From Chitinophaga pinensis (GTDB lineage: Bacteria > Bacteroidota > Bacteroidia > Chitinophagales > LD1): a stretch of DNA of 46,305 bases. Numbering within the stretch: position 1 is the first letter of the stretch; every line of letters starts with the position of its first letter. The DNA lies in assembly GCA_945867505.1 (NCBI GenBank), contig CAMBIM010000003.1:1-46305 (forward strand), written 5' to 3'. The position numbers and the translations under genes are program-made. The notes beneath the pieces were generated by a model. The model searched no databases. It was given only the letters and a program-made list of their open reading frames with translations, and was not told the DNA's origin. This document shows positions 20,957-23,764 of the stretch, piece by piece.

Positions 20957-22417
20957 TTACTCTTTTACAATTCTTTTTACAGTTCCATTAACCGTTACAA
21001 AATACATACCTGCTGCTAAGTCAGCTACATTAAGCTGATACGAATTGGTATTATTCATTTTTTCATTTTTAATAATACGTCCATTCATATCTGCCAACTT
21101 AATTTCAAGGCTTCCGGTTGGTTCGGCTAATGAGATATTGATTTTGCCTGAAGTTGGATTAGGGAACAAATTAAATTGGGTAGTAGTTATTTCTTTTACA
21201 CCAGTGCTTGCGTTAGCGTAAAACTTAGCTGTTAAAGAGCCATAGATTGACGCACTACCTGAGCCACCTGTTTCTACATAATTCTGAGCTACTGCATAAT
21301 ACGTGTGTGTACCCGCAGTTACATCATAAGAACGAGTGTGCGAGAAGGAGTTGCCATCTATACTTGCACTTGGTGCTTCCACGTTTACGTTGTCTGCGTT
21401 GGTTCCCCAGTCTCTGACATCACTAGCTGCAAGAACAATGCGGTCGCCCAGGTCAGAATTGCAATTTCCATCAAACGTAACCAATACTTTTCCGTCTGTT
21501 GGAGCAGTTAAGGTTACCGAATCCAGAGCCACAGCATTAGTTAAAGCTACACCGGTTTTTGAAAGGCTTGTATAGCTTGCAGTAGGGCCGGTTGCAGGAA
21601 AAAATTCGGCTGACAGGTTACCATAGATATAGGCATTACCGCTACCGGCAGTATTTACGTAGTTCTCGCCTACTGCATAGTAAGTATATGCACCGGCTGT
21701 TACATCATACACTCTGGTATGTGAAAAGGGCAAATACCGAGAGTTAGCATTCGAAGATTCTACCGATACGTTGCCAGCGTTTGCTCCCCATGAAGCAGCA
21801 TTGCTTGCCGCTACAACAATTTTATCGCCTACATCGGAATGAACGTAGCCGTCAAAGTGAACGACTATTTTACCAGCAGCCGTTGGGTTGATGGTAAGCG
21901 AACCGAGATTAACCGCGGCACCTCTCAAATTTCCGTTGTAGTAAATATCCTGATTAACTACAGCAGCCGTACCAGTGGCAGGGAAAAACTCTACTGAAAG
22001 ACTAGCATAAATATTGGCTATGCCGGAACCAGCTTCTTCTACATAATTTTGACCTACAGCATAAAACGTATCGGCACCTGCTACTACGTCATAAGAACGG
22101 GTATGCGAAAATGACCGTCTGTTGGCTGCTGCATCCGGCACTAACATTCCGATGTTATCATTGTTGGTGCCCCAATAAGGTTCGTTACTGGCTGCCAGTA
22201 CAATTCGATCTCCATCATCGGCCGTAAACATACCATCAAAGTGTACCACCACCTTTCCAGCAGAAGGGAAATCAACAATCTGTTGTGATAAGGCAACCGG
22301 GGCTCCGCGCAAGTTACCCGAATACTGAATGCTTTGATGCCAAACCAACGACTGGGCTTGACTGATAACCGCAAAGAATGAAAAAATTAAAACGAGGGGT
22401 AAAATTTTTGTTTTCAT
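20957..22417 (-). CDS. secreted protein with three tandem beta-rich repeats and T9SS type A C-terminal sorting domain
   Basis: Signal peptide MKTKILPLVLIFSFFAVISQAQS. Three repeats of the form G-KVVVHFDG...D-GDRIVLAAS...WGTN-DN...SFSHTRSYDVTAG-TYYAVGQNYVE-GSG-A-IY-L. C-terminal FNLFPNPTSGKINISL...AAGMYFVTVNGTVKRIVKE. Confidence 0.92.
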   Translation of the reverse strand: MKTKILPLVLIFSFFAVISQAQSLVWHQSIQYSGNLRGAPVALSQQIVDFPSAGKVVVHFDGMFTADDGDRIVLAASNEPYWGTNNDNIGMLVPDAAANRRSFSHTRSYDVVAGADTFYAVGQNYVEEAGSGIANIYASLSVEFFPATGTAAVVNQDIYYNGNLRGAAVNLGSLTINPTAAGKIVVHFDGYVHSDVGDKIVVAASNAASWGANAGNVSVESSNANSRYLPFSHTRVYDVTAGAYTYYAVGENYVNTAGSGNAYIYGNLSAEFFPATGPTASYTSLSKTGVALTNAVALDSVTLTAPTDGKVLVTFDGNCNSDLGDRIVLAASDVRDWGTNADNVNVEAPSASIDGNSFSHTRSYDVTAGTHTYYAVAQNYVETGGSGSASIYGSLTAKFYANASTGVKEITTTQFNLFPNPTSGKINISLAEPTGSLEIKLADMNGRIIKNEKMNNTNSYQLNVADLAAGMYFVTVNGTVKRIVKE

Positions 22418-22576: not shown

Positions 22577-22606
22577 CAGGGTATTCCGGCATTACGGAAT
22601 ACCCTG
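22577..22606. repeat. perfect inverted repeat (12-bp arms, 6-nt loop)
   Basis: CAGGGTATTCCG gcatta CGGAATACCCTG, with partial extension of the stem (CTCCG / CGGAaAG). Confidence 0.75.
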
Positions 22607-22648
22607 ACGGAAAGAGAAATTCTTTTATCAAAGCACTATAACAGCTAT

Positions 22649-22858
22649 AACAATGCTGTTTTAATTAATAACAATATTGAAAGGAATTAAAGCAGTATAG
22701 TTATTGCCTAAAACACTATTATTTTATATAAAAACAATAGTGTTTTAATTCATTTTATAGTTGTAATAAATAATAACAACGCTGTTATTATTTATTACAA
22801 TGTTGTTTTGTTTTGTAGCAATGCTGTTATTTTATAAAACAACATTGTTATATATTTG
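22649..22858. repeat. 21-bp-period array of about 10 degenerate units carrying AACA-N4-TGTT dyads
   Basis: Units start at 22649, 22670, 22691, 22712, 22733, 22754, 22775, 22796, 22817 and 22838, exactly 21 bp apart. Exact AACA-N4-TGTT at 22649, 22733, 22775 and 22838; near matches at 22796 (TACA-ATGT-TGTT) and 22817 (AGCA-ATGC-TGTT). Confidence 0.85.
22761..22800. repeat. perfect 18-bp inverted repeat with 4-nt loop inside the 21-bp array
   Basis: TTGTAATAAATAATAACA acgc TGTTATTATTTATTACAA. Confidence 0.9.
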
Positions 22859-22968
22859 GGCATCTTGTTTATATGCAAAAACGTGCTTTCTTTTGCAATA
22901 GTTGCTCTATTTCTTGACCCAACTAAGCGTTTATGATAATAAGCCGGTGCAATCGAAACTATCACCGA

Positions 22969-23604
22969 ATGAAAATTCAAGCTCGCGGGATATTTGCCAG
23001 CGGAGTGTTGGAATCTTATTTCAAAAACAAACCCCCGTTTACAGCACCGGTTATGCAGGAAGCCGACTTTAAAAACCTACTTAAAAATTACCACAGCACC
23101 TATTCCGATTACGCTAACGGAGGAAAGTTGAATAAAGGCGAATGGATACAGGCGCAGAAAGCGTTAATACAAGGGCTGGATGATATAGCTGATGATGTAG
23201 ACGAAATAGCCAAGGGGGATGAAAATGTTGTAGAAAAAGGAGGCTTTCAATCCATTAAAACATTCCGTTCAGATAAAGCTGAACCTGCTACACCTATAGT
23301 TGAATGGATTGGCCGCGGAGCCGATGGACAGCTACTTACGCGGTGCAACATGCTGGGGCAGGATGTGTATTATGGCTGCATATTAACGGAGGGCGAACCG
23401 CTGCCCCAGGGTATGCAAATGCAAAACGGCTGCATCAAAATTTTGCAAGGGCTTACTTTTGCTATTTACTTAGAAGAGAATAAGTCGCGCAAAAAATCTT
23501 TCATCCATTTGACGTCTGGCACGCGCTACTATGCGTATTTTTTTGCCCGCAACAGTGCCGGTGTAAGTTCATTAAGCGAGCCCAGAAGTATTATCTGCGG
23601 ATAG
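22969..23604 (+). CDS. hypothetical protein with C-terminal fibronectin type III-like segment
   Basis: MKIQARGIFASGVLESYFKNKPPFTAPV... and Fn3-like end FIHLTSGTRYYAYFFARNSAGVSSLSEPRSIICG. Start at 22969 favoured over 22933. Confidence 0.75.
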   Translation: MKIQARGIFASGVLESYFKNKPPFTAPVMQEADFKNLLKNYHSTYSDYANGGKLNKGEWIQAQKALIQGLDDIADDVDEIAKGDENVVEKGGFQSIKTFRSDKAEPATPIVEWIGRGADGQLLTRCNMLGQDVYYGCILTEGEPLPQGMQMQNGCIKILQGLTFAIYLEENKSRKKSFIHLTSGTRYYAYFFARNSAGVSSLSEPRSIICG

Positions 23605-23637: not shown

Positions 23638-23684
23638 TACAATGCAAACAGCCGAAGAAATTCTCTTCGGCTGTTTGCATTGTA
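23638..23684. terminator. long perfect hairpin (21-bp arms, 5-nt loop)
   Basis: TACAATGCAAACAGCCGAAGA aattc TCTTCGGCTGTTTGCATTGTA just after the 22969-23604 ORF. Confidence 0.7.
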
Positions 23685-23764
23685 GATCCCCTCCCGGGGA
23701 AATTGAAGATTCGATAATTGCTTTATAAATAATCAGTGCATTATCATTTTGTGGTATTAATAGT

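Follow-up and report, generated by a model that had tools for sequence, protein, structure and literature searches.

Tandem arrays with a two-turn period beside helix-Fn3 genes of Bacteroidota keep their phase while their sequence is replaced

In phased operator and iteron arrays, a gene is preceded by tandem dyads or half-sites spaced by whole helical turns, and the known examples have a consensus common to their sites and a defined binder. The arrays described here are built likewise, but each locus has its own sequence and no regulator accompanies them consistently. The locus from which we set out lies in a 46,305-nucleotide stretch of Chitinophaga pinensis DNA (the window). It shows the helically phased dyad half-sites of an operator array for a dimeric regulator, whereas a consensus common to the loci is missing; it has the 21-22-bp spacing of a LytTR-regulated promoter, but the window locus contains no LytTR or other regulator gene. 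The Rep gene of a plasmid iteron or replication origin is likewise missing beside the window array, which leaves an iteron role, raised in a preliminary description of this DNA, unsupported. CRISPR arrays alternate constant repeats with unique spacers, whereas the window array consists of contiguous degenerate units and has no unique spacers.

Form is conserved and sequence is free in the attC sites of integrons and in centromeric satellites. The present arrays share this combination, but we saw no integrase, cassette structure or centromere role, and no covariation as expected of a folded attC. Variable-number tandem repeats and minisatellites resemble them in whole-unit changes of copy number and in locus-specific sequence, but lack the narrow two-turn period, the dyads and the linkage to a gene family. 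Direct repeats of the heptamer TAACTGA, of unknown function, occur in intergenic DNA of Beggiatoaceae, Cyanobacteria and Bacteroidetes, in most cases ahead of a start codon (PMC4679880). They are thus intergenic tandem repeats of similar placement, Bacteroidetes included, but consist of one fixed 7-bp sequence, whereas the arrays here combine a 20.5-22-bp period, usual dyads and gene-family linkage with free sequence. REP and BIME elements are intergenic palindromes, sometimes clustered, and REPs have a family sequence within a genome (PMC3733652); our arrays are likewise intergenic palindromes, but without a family sequence repeated in the genome. We found this class described nowhere in the open-licence literature on tandem or phased repeats. 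Regulatory DNA of bacteria is usually recognised by its conserved sequence, and motif searches are blind to an element defined by spacing and symmetry only.

The array in the window

The features of the locus, in window coordinates, are:

20957..22417, minus strand: divergent neighbour gene with a Por secretion-system sorting tail, not conserved beside arrays
22619..22627, plus strand: degenerate boxA-like motif ATTCTTTTA, 22 bp before the first unit
22649..22858, no strand assigned: array with ten units of 21 bp, each composed of a 12-bp dyad (AACA-N4-TGTT) and a 9-bp AT-rich spacer
22859..22932, plus strand: 74 bp separating array and start codon, presumably a leader or promoter region
22933..23604, plus strand: the paired gene, encoding 223 aa with N-terminal helices and a C-terminal Fn3-fold domain, of a multicopy Bacteroidota family

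The preliminary description had claimed about ten units with dyads two helical turns apart, and the claim holds: the register is exactly 21 bp across all ten units at 22649-22858. Summed over the in-phase units, the match to AACA-N4-TGTT amounts to 69/80, whereas 1000 dinucleotide shuffles, scored each at its own best period, reached no more than 45/80, and periods from 15 to 31 other than 21 score at most 43 on the real intergenic DNA. Shuffled sequence thus does not reproduce the array. A model-free measure gives the same picture, with a lag-21 autocorrelation of 0.55 against a shuffle maximum of 0.47 and nothing notable at 7 or 14 bp. Dyad symmetry exceeds that of a control in which the 21 columns are permuted and the periodicity is thereby retained (z 4.3; 0/500 permutations as good). 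The pattern of phase and dyad lies far above chance, and the evidence for it is strong. As had also been proposed, the phase is retained through degenerate units: the in-register score stands despite an identity between units of 57%, unit 6 being the weakest. Column 4 (A) is invariant (10/10), and columns 3, 9, 10, 11 and 14 are each conserved in 9/10 units. The array has a G+C content of only 20%, contains stop codons in all three forward frames and is crossed by no ORF of at least 80 aa. No second copy was found in its own genome, the matches being its own self-complementary ones.

The start of the downstream ORF, earlier placed at 22969, is corrected to 22933 by the conserved N-terminus of its homologues. 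We recognised no clear Bacteroidota promoter in the 74-bp gap, and it is doubtful that ATTCTTTTA is the counterpart of the GTTCTTT[AG]A motif at five homologous arrays. Just 5' of the array, a perfect 12-bp inverted repeat without a T-run occupies 22577-22606 (CAGGGTATTCCG / CGGAATACCCTG). The Fn3 gene is followed at 23640-23686 by a strong GC-rich hairpin (AATGCAAACAGCCGAAGA..TCTTCGGCTGTTTGCATT), likely a terminator. The last 8 kb of the contig (38200-46305) have no long closed ORF and perhaps belong to one very large gene that runs off the contig end.

The encoded protein has no match in Pfam. Its AlphaFold model comprises a short helix, a 51-residue helix and the C-terminal Fn3-fold domain (mean pLDDT 90.5), the relative placement of the domains being uncertain because pTM is 0.52; a structure search retrieved matches to the Fn3 domain only. 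The superfamily has several N-terminal types: a (window-like; alignments A1 and A2), b (L019, L020 and L056) and c (alignment A3), and the window protein is recognised by the type-c N-terminal profile (E 2.6e-8). Copies of the family occur in 40/399 sampled genomes of the order, with up to about ten per genome. No relative of the close, type-a family was confirmed on viral contigs, and no type-c member was found on plasmids.

Recurrence, turnover and background density

Arrays recur upstream of homologues of the paired gene, as the preliminary description had suggested they might, and phase and dyad are both found in relatives. An array lies upstream at 22/25 type-a loci (profile matches in Bacteroidetes and Chitinophagaceae MAGs), with periods of 20-21, 41-42 or 63 bp, and typically stops 20-100 bp short of the start codon. 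At type-c loci an array was found in 56/70 within the sequence fetched; about 50 of these 56 have it in the 1.1 kb before the gene, and in four it occurs just past the stop codon only. Some arrays lie 0.5-1 kb from the gene or downstream of it. Of the 14 type-c negatives, three come without upstream sequence, and a 21/42/63-bp signal below threshold is present in several more. The other assessable paralogues of the window genome (C193, C78, C20, C86 and C272) also bear arrays, and the loci in G166 and G232 show that arrays reach a further family of the order and a different part of the phylum.

Near family genes the period is 20.5-22 bp, mostly 21. A 20-22-bp fundamental is present in 79% of 136 non-redundant arrays of any period, a set drawn from the fetched loci and enriched for family loci; periods of 41, 43 and 44 bp also occur. 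These computations show a class of arrays whose unit spans two DNA turns (20.5-22 bp), which usually have a dyad of their own and which are strongly linked to helix-Fn3 genes. Dyad symmetry exceeds z 2 against the column-permutation control in 44/61 type-c arrays and 17/24 others, about a quarter of arrays having no significant dyad. Within arrays the half-site columns are conserved and the dyad centre is the least symmetric part, an arrangement resembling that at dimer sites.

The letters are not shared. AACA-N4-TGTT as a conserved binding site found no support, since the motif is private to the window locus: the phased dyads of homologues are unrelated to it, and no motif is common to arrays across the window genome or genus. 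Unit sequences are unrelated among loci (AAAGCTTT at L045, AGTAGTACTACT at L050, AAACGGAATTCCGTTT at L165), and the L034 unit is AAGT-SS-ACTT in both orientations. Type-c pairs with a protein identity of 65-80% have about 0-2% of array 9-mers in common, with higher sharing in the closest pairs only. Many arrays are nearly perfect repeats, the product of recent expansion. The near-identical orthologues L038, L041 and L042 carry 16, 14 and 16 units, and their arrays differ by exactly 42 bp; substitutions are present, yet the register is unbroken. It had been considered that the array might be a decaying tandem duplication; arrays do expand and turn over, but, as these orthologues show, the register is not lost. 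Array sequence is thus quickly replaced while phase is retained, as our computations show.

In the 180-350-bp gap between array and start codon at several type-c loci (L142, L149-L157, L162 and L089) we observed recurring GC-rich stem-like stretches, similar pieces of which occur among paralogues. They have no match in Rfam and are possibly a separate leader RNA.

How common are such arrays elsewhere? Our census drew on 772 kb of G017, 400 kb of the genome that contains the window, and some smaller samples. G017, a member of the same genus, contains 39 tandem arrays in 772 kb, 28 of them phased (3.6 per 100 kb), of which a minority adjoin the Fn3 family. The rest neighbour other small-protein genes or metabolic ones, the latter apparently encoding isocitrate lyase and malate synthase to judge by sequence, or sit between convergent genes. 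After this survey we gave up the notion of arrays confined to Fn3 genes: since they occur at unrelated genes too, they are a wider phenomenon. The window's genome has 0.75 arrays per 100 kb (400 kb sampled). In G004, of the same genus, 3 arrays were found in 80 kb, and our searches revealed no Fn3-family member. G664, G166 and G232 showed no arrays in 320 kb sampled, though their Fn3 genes have one. The linkage of arrays to the Fn3 family is far above background. As further observations, loci L200-L239 (772 kb of G017) correspond to about one 21/42-bp phased array per 27 kb, many G017 arrays stand beside other small helical-protein families (e.g. L202, L207, L218, L225 and L227), and the G004 arrays L276 and L278 have a 41-bp period.

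Candidate readers and competing explanations

Small XRE, LuxR-type or LytTR genes adjoin some arrays, and HTH and LytTR proteins looked promising as a conserved neighbouring regulator. This candidate was rejected because near and far counts differ little: DNA-binding families match about 10/110 small ORFs near arrays and about 7/145 far ones, both counts being approximate owing to overlapping Pfam families. LytTR accounts for 4/110 of the near ORFs. Small stand-alone LytTR-type genes were observed beside the array, or between array and Fn3 gene, at L023/L056, L169, L185, L187, L197 and L237. LytTR sites are 9-bp direct repeats 12-13 bp apart, hence of period 21-22, and because of this spacing the LytTR-bearing loci may be a subset of true regulator-array pairs. 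The Fn3 protein itself was discarded as a sequence-specific binder: it has no marked basic charge, and arrays turn over far faster than the protein evolves, so that a sequence-specific partnership is hard to square with the data.

How might such an array act? We tentatively read it as a phased array of dimer sites that acts in cis, as DNA, on the adjacent gene. In the window, the array would form the control region of the paired gene; a dimeric DNA-binding protein would contact the half-sites, here AACA/TGTT, on one helix face and multimerise along promoter-proximal DNA, and the array would be tuned through whole units being added or removed, its phase staying unbroken. Because sites differ among arrays, the putative binder would be locus-specific or would read spacing and symmetry more than sequence; conceivably, sites are renewed so fast that geometry alone persists. 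Whole-unit change of copy number with an intact register in three orthologues supports this reading, as do the arrays at Fn3 genes of G664, G166 and G232, whose sampled 320 kb hold no others. It is weakened by the want of a consistent neighbouring regulator, by a sequence turnover far faster than that of the Fn3 protein, by distant or downstream arrays, by those at unrelated G017 genes, by the quarter lacking a dyad, and by boxA-like motifs, which suggest that some arrays are transcribed. Those motifs are a ground for an alternative that we consider less likely, namely that the array belongs to a 5' leader transcribed under boxA antitermination, its repeats being an untranslated scaffold or protein-binding sites that control translation or stability. 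In forward orientation, GTTCTTT[AG]A lies no more than about 30 bp from the 5' boundary in 5/18 type-a arrays (expected about 0.04), and it also stands in three 16S leaders of relatives, so that an antitermination signal probably precedes some arrays in a common transcript; moreover, type-a arrays end close before the start codon, and RNA folding of the window array is favourable (z -8.4). On the other hand, the motif is absent at 52 type-c arrays, some arrays lie downstream of the gene, and Rfam has no match for the arrays. Sense strands fold no better than antisense, and the arrays show no strand skew. Across the dyads, G-T and A-C mismatches are equally frequent (324/309; 152/174 in a stricter test) and covariation is no higher than on control axes, which points to double-stranded DNA and not to selection on RNA hairpins; for lack of covariation, G-U bias and sense preference, RNA hairpins were rejected.

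We give similar weight to the idea that the arrays are non-adaptive satellites of a VNTR-like kind, in which slippage or repair would favour two-turn palindromic units that accumulate intergenically beside poorly conserved genes. Such an origin would fit the genome-wide spread of arrays in G017 and G004, where they adjoin unrelated genes or lie between convergent ones, and so would the private sequence of each array, the near-perfection of many and the variable unit number in orthologues. That arrays are strongly linked to a single gene family, also in genomes whose samples are otherwise free of them, argues against it, as does a register that survives substitution as heavy as that in the window. 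Intrinsically curved DNA that shapes the promoter would be compatible with a period of an integral number of turns and with the low G+C content of the window array, but we consider it very improbable: a set of 70 arrays shows no A/T or A-tract periodicity at 10-11 bp (the signal is slightly negative), which leaves curvature unsupported, and several arrays have about 50% G+C. Hardly credible, finally, is a coding function in which 21 bp, or 7 codons, would specify a heptad-repeat peptide. Arrays such as L090 and L187 are open in a frame, and 43 open frames compare with 25 expected from permuted columns. However, no forward frame of the window array is free of stops, stop triplets agree with the dinucleotide expectation, open frames number 35 on the sense and 26 on the antisense strand of 71, and periods of 41, 43 and 44 bp fit two turns and not codons; coding heptads were rejected on these grounds.

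A bolder proposal, possible but rather unlikely, is that these arrays form a new class of bacterial cis-element in which two-turn phase and local dyad are selected and the letters are free. Such arrays would be rebuilt by unit duplication, linked to a dispersed helix-Fn3 family and read by repeat geometry, and would be the prokaryotic counterpart of chromatin sites built on satellites. Should the linkage prove functional, the arrays would allow selection on helical phase alone to be tested and would open a way to study an uncharacterised protein family with up to about ten copies per genome. Even as satellites they would call for a mechanism that explains why the unit spans two turns and why it is attached to one gene family. 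At L090, L163, L180 and L183, the array directly follows the stop codon and begins with a hairpin and T-run; the hairpin stem is similar to the repeat units, which would suit a growth of arrays out of terminators.
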